A DNA stretch of 11,425 bases from JACPSX01 sp035288405 [NCBI: bacterium] (GTDB lineage Bacteria > JACPSX01), in assembly GCA_035288405.1 (NCBI GenBank), contig DATEAK010000373.1, positions 1 through 11,425 on the forward strand, written 5' to 3'. Each line of letters opens with the position of its first letter. Positions within the stretch are counted from its first letter, which is position 1. The notes under the pieces were generated by a model that was not told the DNA's origin, searched no databases, and saw only the letters and a program-made list of their open reading frames with translations. Made by a program: the position numbers and the translations under genes. Below, one piece after another: positions 1 to 11,425 of this stretch.

Positions 1-50
1 TCCCCAAGGTCCGAGCGGTAATGCACATGGAGATCCTGTATGCGGATCAC
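1..50 (-). CDS. ABC transporter ATP-binding protein, N-terminal fragment (runs off window)
   Basis: Only the first 16 codons are present, reading MIRIQDLHVHYRSDLG from a GTG start. The pattern of a short beta strand, then DLHVHY and a Gly, is how ABC ATPase subunits begin, just before the A-loop and Walker A, which lie outside the window. The GTG overlaps the TGA of the permease gene (GTGA, 47-50), and a G-rich Shine-Dalgarno-like stretch sits a few bases upstream at 54-62. The overlap implies translational coupling to the permease. By inference it supplies the ATPase for the permease encoded directly upstream, as in FbpC/PotA-type importers. The family call rests on a short peptide plus position, so it is likely but not proven. 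Confidence 0.72.
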   Translation of the reverse strand, partial: MIRIQDLHVHYRSDLG

Positions 51-1768
51 GTTCCACCCCCAAAAGCGCCGTGCTTGCGAAATCCCACCCGACGGGAAAT
101 CACGGTGAGCACGAGCAGGGCCAGCATGAGCATGGAGCCGATGGCACCCACCGCCCCCACATAACCCTCGTCCCACATGTTCCAGATCAGAATGGAGAGG
201 ACCTGGTTTTCAGACCCTTGATAGAGGATCAAAGGCATGCCGGCGATTCGTACCGCGTGGAGAACGACCCAAATCCAGACCCCGACAAAGGTCGGGGCCA
301 GCAACGGCAGTAAGATCTTGAGTCCCACGCGCCACGGTCGGGCCCCGCTCAAATAAGCCGCTTCCTCGATCTCCTTGTGAATCTGCAAGAGACCGGCGTT
401 CATGGACCGGGTCCCGTAGGCCAGAAACTGCACGGAAAACCCAATCACCATGGCCCAGATCGTTCCGTAGATGGGGAGAATGAAATCCAGCTTCAGGAGA
501 ATCCACATGAGGGCGAGCCCCATCACGATCCCGGGAATTGCATGAGGGATGAAGGCCAGCTGATCCAGGATCTTCCTCCCCCAGAAGCGGCTGCGCACGA
601 CCACGAGGGAAGTAAAGAAGGCCAGGAGGGTGGTCGCCGTGGCGGCCGCGAAGGTCATGATCACCGTGTTCTTCAGGGCTCTGCCGACCTCCCCGTAGGT
701 GCCCAGCAGGCGGTAGTTCTTCAAGGTAAACTTCTGGATCGCCTCCAGGGAGGGAGCCTGCAGGTAGGGCAGGAATGAGGTAAAGACGAAAACGAGAAAG
801 GGCACCACGACCGCCAGGCCCAGGTAGAGCAGCACAAGCCCAAGGGCCGGGACCCGCCAGCGCTTCAGATCGGTCTGACGGGGCCGGTACCCCTTGCCGG
901 TTATGATGGTAAAGCGATAGGCGCGGCTGATCATGCGGGTGTAGAAATACGTGGTCACCAGGGCAATGAAAAGGTAGACCATGGCCAGGGCGTTGGCCTG
1001 CCCGTAGATGGGGAGGAACGTTGCCGTGTGGACGATCGAATAAATCTTCGTGCTGAACACGAAGATCCCGGCGGGGAGGCCCAAAATGCCCGGAATCTCG
1101 AAGACCTCCAGGGCCGTCATGGCCTGATAGACCATGACGGCAAAGAGACCGGGAGCCAGAAGGCGGAAGGTCACCTTGCGCATGGCCGAAGCGGGGCGCG
1201 CGCCCGAGACCGCAGCGGCTTCCTCCAGGGCCGGGTCCATGCTGCGGAAGAGGGGAACCAGCATCAAGAAAGCGGTCGGCACCAGGCGCAGCCCTTCCAG
1301 AAAGATCATCCCCGGGAGAGAATAGATATTGATGGGACCTCTGGGCAGGTCGAAGACCGCCATCAGGATCCGGTTCACAAACCCGATGCGCGGGCTCAGC
1401 AGGAGGACCCAGGCCATGGCCTGAAGCATCCCGGGAACGGCCAGGGTCATGGGGACGCCGGCATAGACCAGAACCTTTCCCGGCATGTTCGTGCGCTCCG
1501 CCAGCCAGGCCAGGGACACGGCCAGGCTGATCCCCACCAGGACGCTGCCGGCCACGTAAAGAACCGTGTTGACCATCAGGTCGTACGTGGACGGATCCAG
1601 GTAGACCGCCGCGTAGTTCTTGAGCCCCATCTCGGTGAAGCGGAACTCCGTCGGCATTTTTGCGAGACTGAAGCTCCCCAGGACCAGGAACGAGAGCGGG
1701 CCCGCCACCAGAAAAGTCACCAGAGCGAAGATCACATAGTGGTTTGCCTTCGTGGATCCCGAACCCAT
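47..1768 (-). CDS. ABC transporter permease with two fused transmembrane domains (FbpB/AfuB-like)
   Basis: This 573-residue inner-membrane protein would form the whole translocation channel in one chain. Hydrophobic segments occur throughout, with two homologous halves separated by a polar linker near residues 285-305. Each half carries the EAA loop that contacts the ATPase: EEAAAVSGARP at about 182-192 and EEAAYLSGARP at about 468-478. This double binding-protein-dependent permease layout is typical of ferric-iron, phosphonate, putrescine and thiamine-type importers. The start has GAGG about 8 bases upstream. A 111-bp gap separates it from the SBP-A gene upstream, and its stop overlaps the ATPase start. 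It probably serves SBP-A and perhaps SBP-B. Substrate cannot be read from the permease. Confidence 0.93.
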   Translation of the reverse strand: MGSGSTKANHYVIFALVTFLVAGPLSFLVLGSFSLAKMPTEFRFTEMGLKNYAAVYLDPSTYDLMVNTVLYVAGSVLVGISLAVSLAWLAERTNMPGKVLVYAGVPMTLAVPGMLQAMAWVLLLSPRIGFVNRILMAVFDLPRGPINIYSLPGMIFLEGLRLVPTAFLMLVPLFRSMDPALEEAAAVSGARPASAMRKVTFRLLAPGLFAVMVYQAMTALEVFEIPGILGLPAGIFVFSTKIYSIVHTATFLPIYGQANALAMVYLFIALVTTYFYTRMISRAYRFTIITGKGYRPRQTDLKRWRVPALGLVLLYLGLAVVVPFLVFVFTSFLPYLQAPSLEAIQKFTLKNYRLLGTYGEVGRALKNTVIMTFAAATATTLLAFFTSLVVVRSRFWGRKILDQLAFIPHAIPGIVMGLALMWILLKLDFILPIYGTIWAMVIGFSVQFLAYGTRSMNAGLLQIHKEIEEAAYLSGARPWRVGLKILLPLLAPTFVGVWIWVVLHAVRIAGMPLILYQGSENQVLSILIWNMWDEGYVGAVGAIGSMLMLALLVLTVISRRVGFRKHGAFGGGT

Positions 1769-1879: not shown

Positions 1880-3037
1880 CTATCCCTTCTTGCTCCCGCC
1901 CCGGAGCCACATCTCTTCCCAGAGCTTGAGCAGCTTGGGCTGAATCTCCAGCTCATCGCCCGGCTCCCGGAAGGCTTGCTCTTTCCCCAAGATCTCCTCG
2001 GCAAAGGGGAGAAGTTCCCGGCGCTGCAACCCCTTGTGGACCGGCGGGGCAAAGTCCGCGGCGTACTGGGCAATCTGGCCTTCCTTGGAGAGAAACCAGT
2101 TCACGAAGAGTTTGGCGGCGTTGATGTTGGGAGCCTTCCGCAGGATCCCCATCTCCGAGGAGGAGGACGGCACGGGCTCGGGACAGGTGTAACTCACCGG
2201 AGCCCCCTCGACGACCTTCTGGTACGTGCGGTATTCCGCTGCCGGAATGTTCGCGTAAAACTCCCCGGCCACCGTGAGCTCGAGCATGGCGTTCATCCCC
2301 TCCTTGCGGAGCTGGGGTTTCACCTCCGTGAACATCCGGGTCAGGTAATCCGTCATCCACTTCTCACCTTTCACCTTCCAGAGCTGCAGGGCCCAGAGCT
2401 GAGGACGGTTGCCCAGAGCCAGGTTGCGGTTTTTCCAAATCGGGTTGGTGAGAAAGTCCTCCCACTTCTTGGGCAGGTCAGACTTCTTCACCAGCTTCGG
2501 GTTGTAAGCCATACACCAGTAGCGCATGTGCATCCCGACCCACTGCCCGCTGGGGTCCTGAGTTTTCGGAAGGTTGTTCTTCAGATTGGGGATATCCCGC
2601 ATATCCTCCAGGGCCCCGGCATCCCGGTACAGGAAGAAGCTCCCCCCCAGGCCGGTAATCACGTCGGTCACGATGCGCCCCTGCTTGTAGGCCATCACGG
2701 TCTTGATGGCCCGGTCCTCGTGGCTGGCCCGGTTGTAGGTGATGCTCAAGAAGGGGTACCTCTCCTTGAAAGGCCCCAGGATCTCTTCGGCCTGGGGTGG
2801 ATCCCAGGTCGAGAAAATCCGCAGCTTGCCTTCCTTGCGGGCTCCATCCATCCAGGCTCTGGGAACCTTGAGCTCCTCGTCCAGCCCGGCCAAAAGGGTT
2901 GCTTCCAGTTTGATCTCTTTCAACATCTTCTGGGTTGCCTTCGGGAGAGAGGCAGGCACGGTTTGAGCCGATGCGGCCGCCGTGAGGCCGCCGCAAAGGA
3001 ACAGGAGAATCATCAACCCCGCAAGACCTCGGATCAT
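1880..3037 (-). CDS. Periplasmic solute-binding protein SBP-A (FbpA/AfuA-like, family 1)
   Basis: This 385-residue exported receptor has a signal peptide with a hydrophobic core at about 5-18 and an ASA|Q cleavage site after residue 24. The Cys at 15 is not in a proper lipobox, so it is probably a soluble periplasmic protein. The fold resembles the FbpA/PotD group: KLRIFSTWDPP near 71-81, a hinge region with WCMAYN at 174-179, and LFVNWFLSKEGQ at 310-321. It lacks the adjacent tyrosine pair used by FbpA to bind ferric iron, so iron is unlikely. It is roughly three-fifths identical by eye to SBP-B at 5892-7055. The start is fixed by AGGAGG at the ideal distance (3038-3049). It lies just upstream of the permease and is its likely partner. 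Confidence 0.93.
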   Translation of the reverse strand: MIRGLAGLMILLFLCGGLTAAASAQTVPASLPKATQKMLKEIKLEATLLAGLDEELKVPRAWMDGARKEGKLRIFSTWDPPQAEEILGPFKERYPFLSITYNRASHEDRAIKTVMAYKQGRIVTDVITGLGGSFFLYRDAGALEDMRDIPNLKNNLPKTQDPSGQWVGMHMRYWCMAYNPKLVKKSDLPKKWEDFLTNPIWKNRNLALGNRPQLWALQLWKVKGEKWMTDYLTRMFTEVKPQLRKEGMNAMLELTVAGEFYANIPAAEYRTYQKVVEGAPVSYTCPEPVPSSSSEMGILRKAPNINAAKLFVNWFLSKEGQIAQYAADFAPPVHKGLQRRELLPFAEEILGKEQAFREPGDELEIQPKLLKLWEEMWLRGGSKKG

Positions 3038-3182: not shown

Positions 3183-4199
3183 CTATCTGTACAGGGCCGT
3201 GTAAAACCCGCTGTCGTCCAACTTTTTTACGATGCTCATGTCCGCGATGTCCTGGAGCTTCACTTGCGCGGCCGCCGGAATAGTCTTTGCCGTCTGCTCC
3301 AGGAGATACTTTAAAGCCTCCATCGAGATGTACGGTATCCGTTGCGTCACCTTATCGGTGGCGTAGTATTCATACGTGGCGCCAATGATTTCCTCGTCGC
3401 TCATCCTCATGCGCTTGGCGATGACCATTTTGCCGAAGTCCCTGTCGGTCTTGAAGCGATGCATCCCTTCTCCATAAGCCTTCAGGAGCCTCTCCAACTC
3501 ATCGGGGTTGCTCCGAAGGAAGGCTTTGCGAATCCCATAGGACACCGAAACGTAGGGGATCCCCAGATCGGCCAGATCCACGAGCGTCCGCATTCCCGCC
3601 TTCTCCAGTGCCAGTTGGGCCGGCGGGACGATTACGGTGCCGTCCACTTTCCGGGCCTGCAGGGCGGCGGCCCGCTCGCCCTGGCCTCCGACACCGATGA
3701 TGTTTACGGAATCCGGGGAAACGCCCAGCTTGGTCAGGGCGTTTCGAGTCAGCCAGTCGGAAGAGGCTCCCACCCGGCTGATCGCCAACCGCTTTCCCTT
3801 CAGATCCTCGGGCTTGCGAATTTCGGGCACAACCACCAGCTTGTACTCGGGGTGGTTGTTTTGCGTGGCGATGATCACCAGCTCCGCGCCGCCGGCGATC
3901 GGGGGAATCAGTTCGTCGGGAGCGGTCAGGAGGACGTTGACTTCCCCGGCGATCAGCGCCGCCTCCCCGGCGATGGCGCCGATGCGGACAAACTCCACGT
4001 TCAGGTTGTACTTGTCGAAATAGCCCGCCTCCGCCGCCGCCCAGGTGGGGGCCAGGGCTCCAGCCACAAACGTGTGAGCCATCTTGAGCTTGAACTTCGG
4101 GGGACCCGCCTGGGCCCACACGGAGGGCAAGAATGCAGCACCCACAAGGCCGCTGCCAAGGAGCACAACGGAAATCAGCATCGCAAGACGTTGGATCAT
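3183..4199 (-). CDS. NMT1/TauA-type ABC substrate-binding protein
   Basis: This 338-residue exported binding protein has a signal peptide with a hydrophobic core at about 6-24 and SVWA|Q cleavage after residue 29. It shows the layout of the NitT/TauT/ThiY-like family: PTWAAAEAGYFDKYNLNVEF at 51-70, IAGEVNVLL at 83-91, the hinge segment KPEDLKGKRLAISRVG at 129-144, and NPDELERLLKAY at 231-242 near the C-terminal lobe. Members bind sulfonates, nitrate, pyrimidines, riboflavin precursors or aromatic acids such as phthalate, and normally work with separate TauB/TauC-type subunits, none of which are in the window. The start is set by GAGGAGG at 4205-4211. It begins 36 bp after the UbiD stop, so it is probably co-transcribed with it. 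It belongs to a different family from SBP-A and SBP-B. Confidence 0.9.
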   Translation of the reverse strand: MIQRLAMLISVVLLGSGLVGAAFLPSVWAQAGPPKFKLKMAHTFVAGALAPTWAAAEAGYFDKYNLNVEFVRIGAIAGEAALIAGEVNVLLTAPDELIPPIAGGAELVIIATQNNHPEYKLVVVPEIRKPEDLKGKRLAISRVGASSDWLTRNALTKLGVSPDSVNIIGVGGQGERAAALQARKVDGTVIVPPAQLALEKAGMRTLVDLADLGIPYVSVSYGIRKAFLRSNPDELERLLKAYGEGMHRFKTDRDFGKMVIAKRMRMSDEEIIGATYEYYATDKVTQRIPYISMEALKYLLEQTAKTIPAAAQVKLQDIADMSIVKKLDDSGFYTALYR

Positions 4200-4235: not shown

Positions 4236-5834
4236 TTACTCAACCCGGGTCCGGCTCTTGGCCATCTTCTCTCCCAACTGGATGTATTGACCTTTCAAGA
4301 TCAGTTGGGCATTTTCCTCGTCGTCCTCGTCCCACATCCCCAGCGTGTACCCATACCAGGGCTCCCGCAGGTGAAGCTTGGGAAGCCCCGCCTCCTCCCA
4401 GATCCGGATCGCTCGCTCCATGTATTCCTTCTTGGGCAAGGCCACGGGAGGATAAGGGAACTTGCGGGTCGCATCGATGAGCAAGGCGGAGTTCCCCGTC
4501 GGGGGAGGGAAGGTCCGGCTTTCTCCCTCCACGGTGAAGGGGAGCCCCGAGGGATCCAGTCGCGCCGTTCGCCCCTTTATAATCTCAATGTCCCTGTGCG
4601 GCTGTGTCGAATAGGAAAGTGCCCAGTTCACCGCATCAGCGTCCCGGGGATTAATGTCCTCGTCCACGACGATGATGTACTTGCCGATGTTCGGGTCTCG
4701 ACCGGCCACGGCGTGGAGAATCTGCCAGGGTTGGCTCGGATGACTTTTGCGGATCTGGATCACCAGGTACATCCAGCCGCTGCCCGAGTAGTGGAAGGCA
4801 AGGTCCTTGACCATGGGCAGGTTGCACTCGTATTTGAGGAAGCGATAGTATACGCACTCCGTGGTAAAGCGCTGGATCACGTGATTGTCCGAAGGAGGAA
4901 AGCCCACTAGAAAGGGCGTAAAAATGGGCCGGAGCCGGTGGGTGATGCAGGTGATCTTCATGATGGAGTTGACCCGGTGCTCCATCATCATGTAGCCCGG
5001 ATACTCTCCGAAGGCACCGTAGGGCTCCGCGAATTCCGTGGAAATTTCCCCCTCGATGACGATCTCCGCATGGGCGGGAACTTCCAGATCGACGGTTTTG
5101 CACTTGACCAGCTCTAGAGGCTCCCCCATGAGAGCCCCGGCCACAGCCAGTTCGTCTACCCCATAAGGAATATTCACCGAGCCCACATAAGACACCGCCG
5201 GGACGGCACCGATGACGATGGCCGTCTGGAGGGGGATACCCATCTCTCGGGCTTTGCTCCAGTGATGGAGCCTGGCGTGGTGGACAGGGCCGATGGCGCA
5301 CATAAGACGGTTCCTGGCCCGCAGGTGGCCGCTGTACGTCCCCACGTTCCGAGTGTCGCCCCCCGGCTCCTTGGTAATGAACTGGTTCGTGGTCCGGATG
5401 GTGCCGCTGAACCCGGGCTCCTCCACGGGAATCGGGAAATAGTCCATTCCTACTTCTTCCAGCCAGGCTCCCGTGTGCACTTCTTCCTGAACCGGCCCCG
5501 AATTCACCAAGCGTGGCGGCAAAGGATGGTCCAGGGCCTGGCGCCACTTCTCGTACATCTCGTCGGGGTTCTCCAGACCCATTCCCCAGGCAAACATATC
5601 CCGGGAGGCTCCATAGACGGCAGCCGCCACCATCCCGTCGTACTGGCGCCCTTTCACATCCGTAACATTTTCGAAGAGAAACGCTCTTCTCTCCTCCTCT
5701 GCGAGCCCGCGGAACTGCAAGCGCACCAGAGGGAGAAGCTCAGTCTCTTTCACCACCGGGCGCGTGATCCGGGCCAGCCGCCCTTTCTTTTCGAGCACCT
5801 GAAGGTATTCGCGAAGATCATGAAATTCGGCCAT
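4236..5834 (-). CDS. UbiD-family prFMN-dependent (de)carboxylase
   Basis: This 532-residue cytoplasmic enzyme is of usual length for UbiD/Fdc1 proteins, which reversibly decarboxylate aromatic, heteroaromatic or unsaturated acids using prenylated FMN made by UbiX (no ubiX in the window). Family landmarks are the N-terminal FHDLREYLQVLEKKGRL, TRNVGTYSGH at 161-170, PYGVDELAVAGAL at 223-235, VPAHAEIVIEGE at 252-263, and AFGEYPGYM at 274-282. Against A. niger Fdc1, a constant offset of -5 places the metal ligands at N163, H186 and E228 and the catalytic acid at E277. The same offset puts Ser168 and Tyr272 where Arg173 and Glu277 are expected, which is unusual. The start has AGGAG 7 bases upstream. 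It lies between two binding-protein genes (57 bp and 36 bp gaps), suggesting it acts on the imported compound. The true substrate is unknown. Confidence 0.93.
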   Translation of the reverse strand: MAEFHDLREYLQVLEKKGRLARITRPVVKETELLPLVRLQFRGLAEEERRAFLFENVTDVKGRQYDGMVAAAVYGASRDMFAWGMGLENPDEMYEKWRQALDHPLPPRLVNSGPVQEEVHTGAWLEEVGMDYFPIPVEEPGFSGTIRTTNQFITKEPGGDTRNVGTYSGHLRARNRLMCAIGPVHHARLHHWSKAREMGIPLQTAIVIGAVPAVSYVGSVNIPYGVDELAVAGALMGEPLELVKCKTVDLEVPAHAEIVIEGEISTEFAEPYGAFGEYPGYMMMEHRVNSIMKITCITHRLRPIFTPFLVGFPPSDNHVIQRFTTECVYYRFLKYECNLPMVKDLAFHYSGSGWMYLVIQIRKSHPSQPWQILHAVAGRDPNIGKYIIVVDEDINPRDADAVNWALSYSTQPHRDIEIIKGRTARLDPSGLPFTVEGESRTFPPPTGNSALLIDATRKFPYPPVALPKKEYMERAIRIWEEAGLPKLHLREPWYGYTLGMWDEDDEENAQLILKGQYIQLGEKMAKSRTRVE

Positions 5835-5891: not shown

Positions 5892-7055
5892 CTACTTTGC
5901 GGGCTTTGCCCCCTTTCCCAACCAGAGGCTGTTCCAGAAGTCCCGGACTTTCGGCAGCGTTTTTTCCGCATCCTCGGGGAGTCGAAAGCTGACCCGCTTG
6001 CCGAGAATCTCGTCGGCATAGGGGAGAAACTCCCGGCGCTGCAACTCCCGGTGTACGGGCGGGGATTCATCGGCCATGTACTGGGCCAGCTGCCCCTCCT
6101 TGCTCAGGAACCAGTTCACGAAAAGCCTGGCGCTGTTCAGGTGCGGGGCGTTTTTCAGGATCCCCATCTCCGAAGTCATCACCGGCACCGGCTCGGCGCA
6201 GGTGAAACTGACCGGAGCCCCCTCCGATTCCTTCTGGGAGGTGCGGTACTCGGCGCTCGGGATGGAGGCGTGGAACTCGCCCGCCGCCAGCAGATCCAGC
6301 ATGGCGTTCATCCCCTCCTTGCGTAGTTGGGGCTTCAGGTCGCGAAACAAGCGGATGAAGAAATCCTTGGCCTTCTCCTCACCCCAGGACTTCCAGAGCA
6401 TGAGGGGCCAGAGCTCAGGGCGATTGCCCAGCGCCAGGTTCCCGTTGCGCCACACCGGATTCGTCAACAAGTCTTCCCACTTTTTGGGGAGATCGGACTT
6501 TTTTACCAACTTCGTGTTGTAGGCCATGCACCAATAGCGCAGGTGCATGCCGACCCAGAGGCCGCCGCCATCCTTGGTCCATTCCGGGTTGTTCTGCCAG
6601 TTGGGCACCCCCCGGAGGTCTTCCAGGGCATCGGCTTCCTTGAACATGTCCACGCTGCCGCCGACCCCTGTAATGACGTCGGTCACGTAGCGCCGCTGTC
6701 TGAAGGCGACCACCGTCTTGATCACCCGGTCCTCGTAGCTGGCGCGGCTGTAATCGACCTCCACAAAGGGGTAACGCTCCTTGAAAGGGGCCAACAGGGC
6801 CACGGCCTGCGGAGGATCGAAGGTGGACAGGATCCGCAGCTTTGCTTCCCTTCTTGCCCCCTCGATCCAGGCCCGGGGAACGTTGAGCTCCTGATCGAGT
6901 CCCTTGAGAATCGAGGGGTCGAGTTTCAACCGCTGCAGAATCTCCTGCGTCGATTTCGGGAGAGCAGCGGGGGCCTGGGCCCAAGCGGCGGCGGATGCAA
7001 GCGCGAGAAGCAGCACAAGGCAAGATGCCCCCCCGAAAAGTCTCTTCCAAAGCAT
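5892..7055 (-). CDS. Periplasmic solute-binding protein SBP-B (paralogue of SBP-A)
   Basis: This 387-residue exported receptor belongs to the same FbpA/AfuA-like family as SBP-A. The signal peptide runs from Met1 with a hydrophobic core at about 11-24 and AWA|Q cleavage after residue 26. Long blocks are identical to SBP-A, including LVKKSDLPKKWED, KPQLRKEGMNAML and LFVNWFLSKEGQ. The mature chain has only two cysteines (176 and 286), at the same places as in SBP-A, so a disulfide is plausible. It also lacks the ferric-binding tyrosine pair. I chose the ATG at 7053-7055 because GGAGGAG lies 7 bases upstream. An in-frame ATG at 7074-7076 overlaps the cupin stop (ATGA) and would add 7 residues, but its SD is too close. 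No permease is adjacent, so it may share the one at 47-1768. Confidence 0.92.
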   Translation of the reverse strand: MLWKRLFGGASCLVLLLALASAAAWAQAPAALPKSTQEILQRLKLDPSILKGLDQELNVPRAWIEGARREAKLRILSTFDPPQAVALLAPFKERYPFVEVDYSRASYEDRVIKTVVAFRQRRYVTDVITGVGGSVDMFKEADALEDLRGVPNWQNNPEWTKDGGGLWVGMHLRYWCMAYNTKLVKKSDLPKKWEDLLTNPVWRNGNLALGNRPELWPLMLWKSWGEEKAKDFFIRLFRDLKPQLRKEGMNAMLDLLAAGEFHASIPSAEYRTSQKESEGAPVSFTCAEPVPVMTSEMGILKNAPHLNSARLFVNWFLSKEGQLAQYMADESPPVHRELQRREFLPYADEILGKRVSFRLPEDAEKTLPKVRDFWNSLWLGKGAKPAK

Positions 7056-7062
7056 CTGATAT

Positions 7063-7069
7063 CTCCTCC
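7063..7069 (-). promoter_or_regulatory. Ribosome binding site deciding the SBP-B start
   Basis: GGAGGAG reads 7 bases before the ATG at 7053-7055 and lies just after the cupin stop codon. The alternative upstream ATG at 7074-7076 has only GAGG almost touching it. This favours the shorter signal peptide, beginning MLWKRLF. Confidence 0.7.
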
Positions 7070-7072
7070 GCT

Positions 7073-8134
7073 TCATTTCCTCGCCACGGCCGGCATCCGG
7101 AGCTCAAGTCCCGCCTTCCGGAGCTCCTCTTCGTAGATCGCGCGCACGTCGGGCTCTTCATCCTCGTACTCGATCTGGTCGCCACCTTGCTTCACGTCAA
7201 GCCAGGGCTTATACCTGCGGCCCACGTGAGGGAGACCTCGTCTCAAAGCCACGTGGCGGGCCGGCTCCGGGCTCGTGTTGAAGTGCTGGTGATAGCAGTT
7301 CTCCGGAGGGCTAATCAGGCTCCCCGGCTTCCAATCAATCCGCATCCGCTCTCCTTGTTCATTCCAGAGAAACGTGTATCCCCGGCCGCTGAGCCATACG
7401 ATATGAGCACCCGGATTATGTCGGTGCGCCTTCTTGTAAGTTCCCACTTCCAGCTCGGCGATGTGACCGGCCATGCTGTTCCTTGCCAGGTTGAGCTGGA
7501 CGATGCTCATCCCCGTTCCCATCGGGGTTTCACCCAGATTTGAAGCGTAGGCATCAGGGATTAGACTCACCTTCCACACCGGGCGATCCGTGCCGACTCC
7601 GATTTCTTCGTCTCTCTTTCCTTCGGGGTCGAAGTAATCCGCTTCTCCGTTGTAGCGATCCGTGAAAGAAAATGCGGTATTGAAAACAAAGTCGGGATTT
7701 CGGAAGACATTAAAGACGATGGGGGCATTGATGACGGCCACGTATCGTGCCGGTTCGCTCCCGGTGTTGCGGTGCTGGTGCCAGACGTTCAAGGGAGTGG
7801 CCATGACGCTCCCTCTTTGCCAAGCAGCACTCTGTCGCCGTCCTCCGTCACTCCAGAATTCCGTTTCCCCCTTTCCCTTGAGAACGTAAATCTGCTCCTC
7901 GAACAGGTGGCGCTGGGGCGTGAGGGTTGCTGCGGGCGGGATCTCGCAGACATAGGCGGCATTGAAGCCCTGTCCGCCCTGCAGGATGATAATGGCCCCC
8001 TTTCCCTCTTTTCGCTTCCACGTCTCAACAGGCACCGCAAGGAGATCTTCCACCGCATAGCCCCGCACGACGGGGATCCCCTCGCCTTCAGCCCAAAGTT
8101 CAAAAGGGGAATCCTTTCGAGTACCGTTTGCCAT
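7073..8134 (-). CDS. Bicupin (two cupin domains) protein, possible metal-dependent dioxygenase-like enzyme
   Basis: This 353-residue protein has no signal peptide and is presumably cytoplasmic. It has two cupin barrels. Domain 1 carries QRHLFEEQIYVLKGKG at 74-89 and NVWHQHRNT at 116-124. Domain 2 carries HRHNPGAHIVWLSGRG at 237-252 and NCYHQHFNT at 279-287. The two second motifs match closely (N, H-Q-H, N-T, EPAR), which shows internal duplication. The layout recalls gentisate or 1-hydroxy-2-naphthoate dioxygenases, but I cannot assign a reaction. It could also be an isomerase or a sensor-like cupin. The ATG at 8134 is chosen because AAGGAGG stands 8 bases upstream; an ATG at 8254 has no SD and would add unstructured residues. 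It is the first gene of the transport/UbiD operon, and its stop lies 17 bp before the preferred SBP-B start. Confidence 0.85.
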   Translation of the reverse strand: MANGTRKDSPFELWAEGEGIPVVRGYAVEDLLAVPVETWKRKEGKGAIIILQGGQGFNAAYVCEIPPAATLTPQRHLFEEQIYVLKGKGETEFWSDGGRRQSAAWQRGSVMATPLNVWHQHRNTGSEPARYVAVINAPIVFNVFRNPDFVFNTAFSFTDRYNGEADYFDPEGKRDEEIGVGTDRPVWKVSLIPDAYASNLGETPMGTGMSIVQLNLARNSMAGHIAELEVGTYKKAHRHNPGAHIVWLSGRGYTFLWNEQGERMRIDWKPGSLISPPENCYHQHFNTSPEPARHVALRRGLPHVGRRYKPWLDVKQGGDQIEYEDEEPDVRAIYEEELRKAGLELRMPAVARK

Positions 8135-8142
8135 TTTCTTTA

Positions 8143-8149
8143 CCTCCTT
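8143..8149 (-). promoter_or_regulatory. Strong ribosome binding site of the cupin gene
   Basis: AAGGAGG lies 8 bases before the ATG at 8132-8134 and fixes the start. It is preceded directly by C and a run of eight G (8151-8158). Part of it can pair with CCTTGC at 8177-8182, which could limit access to the site. Confidence 0.75.
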
Positions 8150-8186
8150 GCCCCCCCCAGTTTTTGCGAATCCATAGCAAGGGGCC

Positions 8187-8215
8187 TGCCTCCGAGGGGA
8201 TAGCCCCCGCAGGCA
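8187..8215 (-). other. Leader hairpin upstream of the cupin gene
   Basis: TGCCT (8211-8215, minus strand) pairs with AGGCA (8187-8191). Inside, GGGG pairs with CCCC around the loop GCTAT, leaving a small asymmetric internal loop. No T-run follows in the direction of transcription, so it is not an intrinsic terminator. It ends about 50 bases before the cupin start codon and may help stabilise or fold the leader. Confidence 0.45.
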
Positions 8216-8368
8216 ACCCACGTCCGCTCCATCGCTTTGCCGCTCATGGATCATCCAAAACGGAAAAGAGACAAAGAAAAATCTGTTCGGGCCAGGACCT
8301 TGCTTGCTCCCCCCGGTAGTGATTCACCTTGTTGGTCAAATGTAATAATGTAGATGAGTAGCGAGCCG

Positions 8369-8496: not shown

Positions 8497-9360
8497 TCAA
8501 TTCCTGGAGCCGGCCTCCAGAAGGCTCTTCTTCACCAGGTAGGCGGTCATCAGGCGACGGTATTCAGCACGAGACCGGGGATTTATCTCGCGGGCCGCCA
8601 GATCCGCAGCTTCCCTGGCCAAGTCTTCATCCAGTTGCTTCCCCTGGATCAGGACTTCGGCCCCCCGCGCCCGCATGGGCTTTGAGGCCACCGAGGCCAG
8701 GGCAATCCGTCCCTTCCCCACCGTACAGTTTCCATCGCTGAACTCCAGGCATACCGCAGCCACCGCCAGCGCTTCGTCCTCGGCCGTCCGTTTCGTGGCT
8801 CTCTGGTAGGACCAGCCGCTCCGCTCTGATGGCGCGGGGACGATCAACTCCGCGACAATCTCCGTGGGAGCCAACACGGTTTGAAAGGGACCCTCGCAAA
8901 AGCTCTCTGCCTCCACCAGCCGTTCCCCTCGGGCACTCACGACGCGAACCTTGGCTTGAAGGGCCAGCAGAGGAGGAACCGCATCCGCCGCCGGTGAGGC
9001 GTTGCACAGGTTGCCTACCAGGGTCCCGGCATGGCGAATCTGGGGCCGTGAGAAGATGCGGGCTGCCTCCCAGAGCAAGGGGAATCTCTTCCTGACCACG
9101 TCGGCTCTCGCTAATTTGGCGAAAGTCGCCATGGAGCCGACGCGCAGCCCTACCTGCGGATCAAAGTGCACGGTGTCTAGACCCGGGATACCCCGCAGAC
9201 CCACAACGTAGCGGGGCTTTCCTCCACCTCGCTTCTTTAGCTCAACCAAGACATCGGTTCCCCCGGCCATTACTTTGGCCTGCCCAGTGTGCTCGTCGAG
9301 CATGGAGCAGGCTTCTTCCAGAGAGTGGGGTCGCAAGTATTCGAATCTCGGTAGCCTCAT
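8497..9360 (-). CDS. Molybdenum hydroxylase FAD-binding subunit (xanthine dehydrogenase/CoxM-like)
   Basis: This 287-residue protein would carry electrons from the iron-sulfur subunit through FAD. The FAD-binding motifs are clear: AGGTD at 32-36 and GTLVGNLCNASPAAD at 112-126. A C-terminal CO-dehydrogenase flavoprotein-like domain follows from about 180. Length is normal for a three-subunit enzyme. There is no cysteine-rich [4Fe-4S] insert of the kind found in 4-hydroxybenzoyl-CoA reductase beta subunits, so that enzyme is unlikely. The ATG overlaps the large-subunit stop (ATGA, 9357-9360), implying coupled translation and a complex. It is the last gene of its operon; a predicted terminator follows. 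Substrate is not deducible from this subunit. Confidence 0.94.
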   Translation of the reverse strand: MRLPRFEYLRPHSLEEACSMLDEHTGQAKVMAGGTDVLVELKKRGGGKPRYVVGLRGIPGLDTVHFDPQVGLRVGSMATFAKLARADVVRKRFPLLWEAARIFSRPQIRHAGTLVGNLCNASPAADAVPPLLALQAKVRVVSARGERLVEAESFCEGPFQTVLAPTEIVAELIVPAPSERSGWSYQRATKRTAEDEALAVAAVCLEFSDGNCTVGKGRIALASVASKPMRARGAEVLIQGKQLDEDLAREAADLAAREINPRSRAEYRRLMTAYLVKKSLLEAGSRN

Positions 9361-11425
9361 GGACTGACTCCTTGGAGCTCCTTCTCCTTCAGGGCGGCCA
9401 GAATTTTCTCCGGGGTAATCGGCAGACTCTTGATCTGTACCCCAATCGCATCATAGATTGCGTTGGCAATAGCGGGGCAGGTGGGCAACTGGGGCATCTC
9501 TCCGATTCCCTTGGCCCCGTAGGGACCTTCAGGATCAATGGGTTCCACCAGGTAGGTGCGTATCTCGGGAACGTCTCGGGCACTGGGAATCTTGTATTCG
9601 GCAAAGGAGGGGTTCAGTGTCTTCCCCTCTTCCATGAGACAATCCTCGTAAAGGGCCTGACCCAATCCCATCGTAACTCCCCCCTCGACCTGTCCTTCCA
9701 CCGCCATGGGGTTGATGGCAAAACCGCAGTCCTGGGCCGCGCCCAAGGAGAGAACCTTGACTTGCCCGGTCTCCAGATTCACTTCCACCTCTGCCACCTG
9801 GGCGCCAAATGCGTAAGCCAAAGTGCGGCTCCCCTTACGAACCTGAGGGTCATAATCCGTAGGAGGGTTGTAGGAACCACGCCCCATGATCGGGATCCCC
9901 TGGCTGGAAAAGAGAGCGGCTACCACGGCCTCCTCCAAGAGCATGGCTTGCTCCGTCGTTCCTTTGAGGAAGACTCCGTGATCGCGCAGCTCCAGGCTTT
10001 CCGGATCCGCCTTCATTTTTTCCGCCGCCACTTCCAGGAGCTGGCGCTTGGCGTCGCGCGCCGCCGCCAGCACCGCGTTTCCGGCAATGAAGGTCACACG
10101 GCTGGCGTAAGTTCCGAGATCGAACGGGGTGACATCCGTGTCGGCGGCAATTACGGTCACCTCCTGGGGAGAAATCCCCAGCTCGTGAGCCACCAACTGG
10201 GCCAGCACCGTGGTGGAACCCTGGCCAATATCCGCCGTCCCGGTGAGGAGAGAGACGCTGCCGTCCTCGTTCAGTTTCACGAAGGCCGAGGAGCTGTCGT
10301 GGGGAACCCAGATCTTGGACCCGCTCACGTATACCCCTGCGGCAATGCCGATCCCCCGTCCGCGGCCTAGATTGCCCCGTTTGGAATGAAAGTCCGTCTC
10401 TCGGGCTACCACCTCCAAACACTCCGACAGCCCGCAGCTCTTCATCTTGGCCCCCAAAAGAGTCACGTCGCCCTGCTGAACGGCATTCTTTAACCGGATC
10501 TCCACAGGGTCCAGGTTGAGCTCCCTGGCAATGCGGTCCAATTGGGAGTCGTCGGCGAAGCGGACCGCGGTGTTCCCGAAGCCGCGCATGGGAGAGGTCA
10601 CCGGGTTGTTCGTGTAGACATGGTAGGCTTCGTACCGGAAGTGCTCGAAGCGATAGAGATTGGTCAGTTGGGTCGCCCCCGAGGCGATGATCTGAGGTCC
10701 CAGACCGTTGTAAGCCCCCCCGTCGGCAAGCACCCGGCAGTGCTTGGCCACCAGGGTGCCGTCCTTGCGGACCCCGGTTTTCAGGTACACGGTCATAGGA
10801 ACCTTGCGACGAGAGGCCGAAAAGACCTCCTCACGGTCGTACACGATCTTCACCGGCTTGCCCGTCTTCCGGGCCAACAACGCGGCACAAAAGTCTACAC
10901 CCAGGATCTCCCACCGTGCGCCGAAGCCACCTCCCATGAAGGGCTTGATCACGCGCACCATGCCCAGGGACAAGCCCAAAGTTTTGGCCAGATCGGCGCG
11001 GAAGCGGAAGGGGACCTGAGTATTGCACCAGACGGTGAGCCGCCCCGACAAATCACTGGCAGCCAAGGCCACGTGCGGTTCCAGGTTGCAATGAGTGATC
11101 CAGCCGCTGCGAAACGTATCTTCGAAGACGTGGTCTGATTCCCGAAATCCTTTTTCCACATCGCCCGCCGGAATAAGGATCCTCCCGCTGATATTGTTCT
11201 CGACATGATCGTGAAGCCGCGGCGCGCCGGGCTGCATGGACTCCTCGGGAGAAAAAACGGCTGGAAGAAGCTCGTACTCGACCCGGATCAGCTTCAGGGC
11301 CTCAAGGGCAGTGTCCTCGTCCACAGCGGCCACGGCGGCCACCTCGTCGCCGATGTAACGAACCTTGTCCACGGCGAGCCCCAACTCGTCCATGAATGGG
11401 TCAATCGTGCCGTACTTGATCCCCA
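9357..11425 (-). CDS. Molybdenum hydroxylase large (molybdopterin-binding) subunit, N-terminus cut by window edge
   Basis: The reading frame stays open to the right edge, giving 688 codons. It begins GIKYGTIDPFMDELG, so the ATG at 11391-11393 is internal and perhaps 80-100 N-terminal residues are missing. The protein would bind the molybdopterin cofactor and hydroxylate or dehydrogenate the substrate. Numbered from the first full codon, motifs are VRYIGDEVAAV (21-31), GGGFG (164-168), SPMRGFG (277-283), GTADIGQGSTT (395-405) and GIGE (639-642), whose Glu is the expected catalytic base. The position occupied by the AYRCSFR loop of form I CO dehydrogenase reads SPMRGFG, so it is not CO dehydrogenase. 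It could act on a purine, N-heteroaromatic, aldehyde or acyl-CoA. It is coupled to the FAD subunit downstream; the [2Fe-2S] subunit must lie outside the window. Confidence 0.94.
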   Translation of the reverse strand, partial: GIKYGTIDPFMDELGLAVDKVRYIGDEVAAVAAVDEDTALEALKLIRVEYELLPAVFSPEESMQPGAPRLHDHVENNISGRILIPAGDVEKGFRESDHVFEDTFRSGWITHCNLEPHVALAASDLSGRLTVWCNTQVPFRFRADLAKTLGLSLGMVRVIKPFMGGGFGARWEILGVDFCAALLARKTGKPVKIVYDREEVFSASRRKVPMTVYLKTGVRKDGTLVAKHCRVLADGGAYNGLGPQIIASGATQLTNLYRFEHFRYEAYHVYTNNPVTSPMRGFGNTAVRFADDSQLDRIARELNLDPVEIRLKNAVQQGDVTLLGAKMKSCGLSECLEVVARETDFHSKRGNLGRGRGIGIAAGVYVSGSKIWVPHDSSSAFVKLNEDGSVSLLTGTADIGQGSTTVLAQLVAHELGISPQEVTVIAADTDVTPFDLGTYASRVTFIAGNAVLAAARDAKRQLLEVAAEKMKADPESLELRDHGVFLKGTTEQAMLLEEAVVAALFSSQGIPIMGRGSYNPPTDYDPQVRKGSRTLAYAFGAQVAEVEVNLETGQVKVLSLGAAQDCGFAINPMAVEGQVEGGVTMGLGQALYEDCLMEEGKTLNPSFAEYKIPSARDVPEIRTYLVEPIDPEGPYGAKGIGEMPQLPTCPAIANAIYDAIGVQIKSLPITPEKILAALKEKELQGVSP

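Follow-up and report, generated by a model that had tools for sequence, protein, structure and literature searches.

A branch of UbiD-family proteins that lacks the conserved active-site arginine and carries another arginine nearby

Introduction

Work on UbiD enzymes is motivated by their reversible fixation of CO2 on aromatic acids. The arginine of their active site, Arg173 in Fdc1, is treated as conserved, its mutants being nearly dead. In A. niger Fdc1 this residue forms a catalytic network with Glu277 and Glu282 (PMC5818171), and three reports describe the E(D)-R-E motif as conserved across the UbiD family (PMC8379154, PMC8988006, PMC5818171). According to the Fdc1 study, R173A has very low activity, accumulates the prFMN radical and is slowed in its maturation to the iminium form, R173K is inactive and E277Q almost inactive, while E277D and E282D keep activity at a lowered rate (PMC5818171). 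In AroY, exchange of Arg181 or Glu289 is reported to have abolished activity (PMC5656893). Among the titles and abstract openings listed in searches of the open-licence PMC literature, no Arg-less UbiD branch was found to be described. A natural and selected Arg-less lineage makes the question of what the Arg is for directly testable and, if its members are active, provides candidates for substrates not taken by canonical UbiDs.

Among the described systems, HmfF (6h6x, 6h6v), the 2,5-furandicarboxylate decarboxylase of Pelotomaculum thermopropionicum, is both the best sequence match (9.9e-57) and the best fold match of the UbiD-family protein analysed here, which is encoded in a stretch of 11,425 nucleotides (the window, i.e. 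the whole stretch of DNA analysed). The Asn, Glu and acid columns are alike in the two proteins; HmfF, however, has Arg and Glu at the two sites at issue, no Arg at column 147 (numbering of the window protein) and a shorter chain (448 residues). Fdc1 shares family and fold with the window protein and differs by its intact Arg173-Glu277-Glu282 network. Near full-length homology, including the C-terminal part, is found to an uncharacterised subfamily of ~530 aa (L001-L004, L006 and L009-L086 except L017 and L022; 34-51% identity), present in rhizobial and Burkholderiales replicons, in Chloroflexi and Binatia MAGs and in others, often with xanthine-dehydrogenase-type genes nearby. All aligned members of this subfamily have Arg, Glu and Glu, with the exception of L030 (Asp at the Fdc1 Glu277 column), whereas the window protein does not. 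At column 147, where the window protein has Arg, 125 of the 127 homologues of this type that were compared have Tyr, Phe or Thr (Ala in one, one not listed).

Results and Discussion

Family membership and catalytic residues

The gene at 4236..5834 (minus strand) starts with ATG and encodes 532 aa, and its product is a UbiD-family protein by sequence and fold. PF01977 (8.1e-47), PF20696 and PF20695 all match above the Pfam cut-off (159.5, 79.8 and 29.0 bits), and the chain continues past the Pfam UbiD_C match for ~100 residues that it shares with its ~530-aa subfamily. Other profiles score below their cut-offs: TIGR00148 (UbiD family decarboxylase) gives 223.9 bits against 244.85, the phenylphosphate carboxylase alpha and beta equivalogs TIGR02723 and TIGR02724 give 93.8 and 113.6 bits against 564.6 and 468.95, and NF041204 (VdcC-type hydroxyarylic acid decarboxylase) gives 202 bits against 650. 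An AlphaFold2 model of the protein has a mean pLDDT of 93.6, and 49 of the 50 entries listed in its fold comparison are UbiD-family structures (Z 38.0-49.5), the next row having a Z of 14.1. HmfF with prFMN (6h6x) is the closest (Z 49.5, rmsd 1.6 over 423 residues), Fdc1 (4za4) has a Z of 41.4, and phthaloyl-CoA decarboxylase (8oz5, 8pmk) is among the matches.

The initial annotation had placed Ser168 and Tyr272 in the positions of Fdc1 Arg173 and Glu277. Both placements are borne out by codon arithmetic (Ser168, codon AGC, at 5331..5333 and Tyr272 at 5019..5021, minus strand) and by phmmer alignments to solved structures (6h6x HmfF, 7ae4 VdcC, 7pda and 2idb E. coli UbiD), gap-free within both motifs, in which Ser168 falls on the Arg of N-x4-R (Arg168 in VdcC) and Tyr272 on the Glu of EGPFGE/EGPYGD. 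Judged by the E(D)-R-E motif, the protein is not a canonical UbiD decarboxylase, as only the last Glu is present. This acid, Glu277 (5004..5006, minus strand) at the Fdc1 Glu282 acid-base column, is retained as had been claimed, and Glu or Asp occupies the column in 36 of 36 sequences with Ser or Asn at column 168 (Ser/Asn types). The altered protonation chemistry that had been suggested would be one with the proton donor kept.

The metal site had likewise been claimed to be kept. This applies to Asn163 (5346..5348, minus strand) at the Fdc1 Asn168 column and Glu228 (5151..5153, minus strand) at the Fdc1 Glu233 column, both present in 29/29 Ser/Asn-type rows. His186 is less certain: the candidate metal His lies in the pair His185-His186 (5277..5282, minus strand), the register of which is uncertain, and column 186 is variable (His 23, Asp 3, Gln 1 and Asn 1 in 28 rows of the window's clade; mostly Ala or Gln in the canonical sister group). 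For Fdc1, N168, H191 and E233 are here assumed to be the metal ligands, following the numbering of the initial annotation; a look for these designations in PMC5818171 gave no hit in that spelling.

Loss of one arginine and presence of another

From 383 ORFs, 11 with a UbiD match of less than 300 aa were discarded, and the other 372 were reduced to 319 by taking out sequences that were identical to, or contained in, another one (near-copies, e.g. L207 and L208, remain). Together with four PDB segments this gave a set of 323 sequences. Arg is found at column 168 in 280 of these, and none of the 278 that are readable at column 147 has Arg or Lys there. Ser or Asn is found at column 168 in 36, and all 35 that are readable (one is truncated) have Arg at column 147, which in the window is Arg147 (5394..5396, minus strand, codon CGG). 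The same division is seen in a smaller set, with Arg147 in 28/28 Ser/Asn-type against 0/213 Arg168-bearing sequences. When the 28 members of the window's clade were compared with 127 near and 87 far Arg-bearing homologues, Arg168 was found in 0/28 against 127/127 and 87/87, and Arg147 in 27/27 readable members, the canonical homologues mostly having Tyr there. A nearby Asp is also lost in the clade: Ser occupies its place in 27/27 readable members (Ser143 in the window, 5406..5408, minus strand), against Asp in 209/214 Arg-bearing homologues, and Glu138, Glu139 and His170 are clade-specific and present in most members. On these alignments, it is the loss of Arg168 and the gain of Arg147 that go together. 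The codons are compatible with a path from CGC (Arg) via AGC (Ser) to AAC (Asn) by single changes. Arg loss is not always compensated, since seven other Arg-less homologues (four with Thr, two with Lys and one with Pro at column 168) have no Arg at 147.

The coupling originally proposed, a joint loss of Arg and Glu, was assumed at first in the present analysis too and then dropped, since 7 of the 24 Ser-type copies still have Glu at the column of Fdc1 Glu277; Asp is found there in 8/8 members of a second group of Arg-less sequences (see below). In the 280 Arg-bearing sequences of the 323-sequence set this column holds Glu in 275, Asp in four and Cys in one; in the 24 Ser types it holds Gly (11), Glu (7), Ser (3), Tyr (2) or His (1), and in the 12 Asn types Asp (8), Arg (2), Asn (1) or Gln (1). 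A residue that is neither Glu nor Asp is thus seen in 21/36 Ser/Asn types versus 1/280 Arg-bearing sequences, and Glu loss does depend on Arg loss.

DSSP assigns residues 150-155 and 162-173 of the window model to strands and residue 147 to an isolated bridge, which places residues 147 and 168 on one predicted hairpin. If the strands pair symmetrically, 149 would face 168, and 147 would lie one step along the same face. The initial annotation had named another Arg and Glu placed at the two sites as counting against its reading. This is partly the case, as the hairpin predicted to hold residue 168 does have an Arg adjoining its partner strand, although in a different column. The backbone near the site may differ between the two types, because the AlphaFold2 model of the canonical L103 protein (pLDDT 90.3) has strand or bridge at 143-144 (Tyr143, Thr144) and a strand break at Tyr164-Arg165. 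Owing to a one-residue deletion in the window's clade, the register of Arg147 is uncertain by one: in large alignments it falls on the conserved Tyr, in a small alignment with the rhizobial sisters the gap comes at an earlier point, and the DSSP assignments of the two models, window and canonical, fit an ungapped match with Arg147 replacing the residue after the Tyr.

Distribution, phylogeny and selection

Single-sequence searches of genome contigs and viral contigs with the window protein found no relative. An alignment-based search covering one genome for each of 84,980 species was used instead, and the best 80 of at least 563 confirmed relatives were aligned with five plasmid loci and the window protein. 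Arg is present in 81 of these 86 sequences, and the five without it are close relatives (the window, L007, L008, L017 and L022). The plasmid locus L005 was omitted owing to an interrupted frame, and its middle ORF shows Arg and Glu; plasmid relatives (37-39% identity; six of 412 matching records read) keep both residues. That the nearest subfamily is simply Arg-less was ruled out, as the rhizobial and other sisters keep the Arg.

Further genomes were searched with a profile of the five Arg-less sequences, and the motifs were then read in the fetched matches. Arg-less copies were found in 16 of 77 relatives of G002 and in three of 29 genomes in the class of G003 (L017, named Chloroflexi), with E up to 1e-180, and at the same limit in one of 247 genomes in the phylum of G004 (L022, named Blastocatellia). 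Of 395 sampled genomes from the phylum of G002, only three passed 1e-190, namely G001, G002 (Arg-less) and G039 (L103, Arg present). The clade has its members in relatives of Candidatus Binatia MAGs, in three MAGs of the Chloroflexi class and in one Blastocatellia MAG. The match in G424, a relative of G002 and G401, coincides in its coordinates with L020 on a Candidatus Binatia chromosome, and the lineage of G002 and G401 is therefore probably near Binatia. G401 is also the nearest relative of the window: its UbiD protein has 60% identity with identical Ser and Tyr, and identities are 72% for the permease, 68% for the binding protein, 64% for the molybdopterin subunit and 55% for the FAD subunit. 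UbiX was detected above cut-off in 7/7 relative genomes tested.

Whether Ser and Tyr at the two sites define a clade, as had been asked, was examined in trees, and for the Fdc1 Arg173 column the answer is positive. When the three catalytic columns are masked, a single branch with an SH-aLRT of 100, nested inside Arg-bearing UbiDs, unites 25 of 26 Ser/Asn-type rows (21 Ser and four of five Asn rows); the fifth Asn row, L147_12929, falls outside it in the second Arg-less group. This tree had 84 rows, the Ser-type fragments L117, L123 and L148 being left out; thinning at 72% identity reduced the canonical sisters from 127 to 60, of which 45 entered the tree together with a quarter of 37 distant rows. 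For a second alignment, with 17 masked columns, 20 rows were taken from the 28 of the window's clade, 40 from the 60 canonical ones with three further rows, and one in five from the distant ones; the 20 window-clade rows again formed one branch (SH-aLRT 98). In ten chosen branch pairs, some of which, like the window pair, have a dS close to saturation, dN/dS was 0.04-0.18. Loss of the Arg marks a clade that is under purifying selection, in line with the earlier view that it is not random decay. Decay or sequencing error was ruled out by the 24 Ser-type sequences from 18 genomes, of which the window's is one, together with dN/dS.

Four of the 12 Asn types belong to the window's clade and eight form the second group (L205-L212, L205 being the same gene as L147_12929). 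All eight have Asn at 168, Asp at 272 and an Arg exactly on the conserved Tyr without any gap. By strand parity this Arg, one residue further from the Asn, could face the opposite side. In the free tree the second group is separate (SH-aLRT 100) and stands beside Arg-bearing rows (94), while forcing all 28 Ser/Asn-type rows of the second tree into one clade lowers lnL by 15.6 (AU p 0.275), so that a single clade is not rejected. Two independent origins are favoured by the free trees, though not proven. Only one or two evolutionary events, rather than 35, underlie the exchange of one arginine for the other, in sequence sets that are biased toward UbiD-rich MAGs (G001, G002, G003) and relatives of the window protein.

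Gene neighbourhood

The window is a single run of minus-strand genes. It begins with a molybdopterin subunit (9357..11423, cut by the window end), for which the best equivalog is 4-hydroxybenzoyl-CoA reductase alpha, below cut-off, and continues with an FAD subunit of the same xanthine dehydrogenase / 4-hydroxybenzoyl-CoA reductase superfamily (8497..9360), a double-cupin protein with a weak likeness, far below cut-off, to gentisate-type dioxygenases (7073..8254) and a periplasmic solute-binding protein (SBP_bac_6/8) just upstream of the UbiD gene (5892..7076). The UbiD gene is followed by an NMT1-like solute-binding protein (3183..4199), a second SBP_bac_6 solute-binding protein (1880..3037) and, last, an ABC permease that is PhnU2-like, below cut-off (47..1768). 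Overlaps of four bases, as in an operon, occur at 9357-9360 and, between the cupin and solute-binding genes, at 7073-7076. Within 6 kb of 24 Ser/Asn-type gene rows, many with short flanks, SBP_bac_6-type genes were found in 17, a double cupin in 13 (window included) and a molybdopterin subunit in five. The cluster of the nearest relative also encodes an ABC ATPase, a PaaK-like CoA ligase and an Arg-bearing UbiD. Taken together, the neighbourhood looks like one for aromatic acid uptake and breakdown.

Runs of solute-binding genes belonging to one similarity cluster recur near UbiD genes (5892-7076 and 1880-3037 in the window; L156 has five such genes in succession, L152 four). At L151:13146-14695 a second Ser-type UbiD gene of the cluster is split into frames of 422 aa and 112 aa, probably by a frameshift or as a broken copy.

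Possible functions

The presence of a new nearby Arg in every readable member of the branch suggests an enzyme that was rebuilt rather than broken. We give an even chance to the reading that the window protein is a functional, prFMN-binding aromatic-acid (de)carboxylase of UbiD type with a relocated active-site Arg. In such an enzyme the Arg173 of the E(D)-R-E network would have given way to Ser or Asn, both small and polar, and an Arg would have appeared at 147, the bridge residue that immediately precedes the partner strand in this predicted beta-hairpin. Arg147 may then take over the binding of the substrate carboxylate, the poising of the acid (Glu/Asp282), or both, while Glu277, if it mainly served to hold Arg173, would become free to drift. 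That Fdc1 R173K is inactive (PMC5818171) indicates that the position of the charge matters and counts against relocation. More broadly, and somewhat more tentatively, the branch may represent a second way to build the ionic network of a prFMN decarboxylase, in which the Arg was relocated to the neighbouring strand once or possibly twice, Ser or Asn was left behind and the partner Glu was freed, the outcome being active enzymes whose carboxylate geometry differs and whose substrates may be new.

A different handling of the substrate is an unlikely explanation. Here Arg147 would bind a second acidic group, e.g. in a dicarboxylate such as phthalate, and the reacting carboxylate would need no Arg. 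The clade-specific Glu138, Glu139 and His170 suggest a rebuilt pocket, and the gene adjoining the nearest relative's UbiD gene (L144:7620-8609), with the PaaK-like CoA ligase beyond it, is one that we take to be 4,5-dihydroxyphthalate-decarboxylase-like; by profile it has a weak Phosphonate-bd match in Pfam, and Pfam and NCBIfam alike give weak binding-protein matches alone, all below cut-off. The second group, however, has the Arg but not Glu138/139, a pattern that agrees better with a shared role of the Arg than with a shared substrate.

We consider it equally improbable that these proteins are pseudo-enzymes, or non-catalytic partner subunits of a nearby Arg-bearing UbiD. The mutant studies would agree with a dead enzyme, given the very low activity of Fdc1 R173A, the almost complete inactivity of E277Q (PMC5818171) and the loss of activity on exchange of Arg181 in AroY (PMC5656893). 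Another, non-swap UbiD ORF lies within 6 kb in 15/24 rows (13/24 without the two L151 rows that have the 112-aa fragment), some of these ORFs having been checked for the Arg; yet L022, L145, L154 and L162 have no other UbiD within 6 kb with both flanks present. In the known complex of two UbiDs, phenylphosphate carboxylase, the alpha and beta subunits are paralogues encoded together (Azoarcus KH32C, L164), and both retain Arg, Glu and Glu, unlike the window protein. The acid, Asn163 and Glu228 are moreover kept throughout, under purifying selection. An active prFMN (de)carboxylase is favoured over a pseudo-enzyme because UbiX is present in all seven relatives, the Asn/Glu metal site and the acid are intact, and the neighbourhood is of aromatic type.

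A prFMN chemistry other than decarboxylation, e.g. use of the stable prFMN radical, which in the Fdc1 work is favoured by loss of Arg173 along with slowed iminium maturation (PMC5818171), seems less probable still in view of the retained proton donor and a neighbourhood with no sign of another reaction.

Other UbiD types and UbiD-rich genomes

A different Arg-less UbiD type was encountered at L007:6740-8245, L124:3338-4597 and L157:16734-17999, with N-C-A-Y-Q-T replacing the Arg motif, RHGLRADY/F for EGPFGEY (Thr, His and Asp at the triad columns) and Thr at the 147 column; the nearest solved structure to the L007 copy is HmfF. At L164:9709-11121 (Azoarcus KH32C) and L195:292-1710 the Arg and both Glu are kept, and Gly or Ser, and Lys, are found at the Asn/Glu metal-site columns. 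The genomes of L007, L008 and L017 (G001, G002 and G003; 4.5, 5.4 and 3.9 Mb) are rich in UbiD genes, with 66, 62 and 37 matches, fragments included, at E <= 0.001, and G404 has 148 first-look UbiD candidates.
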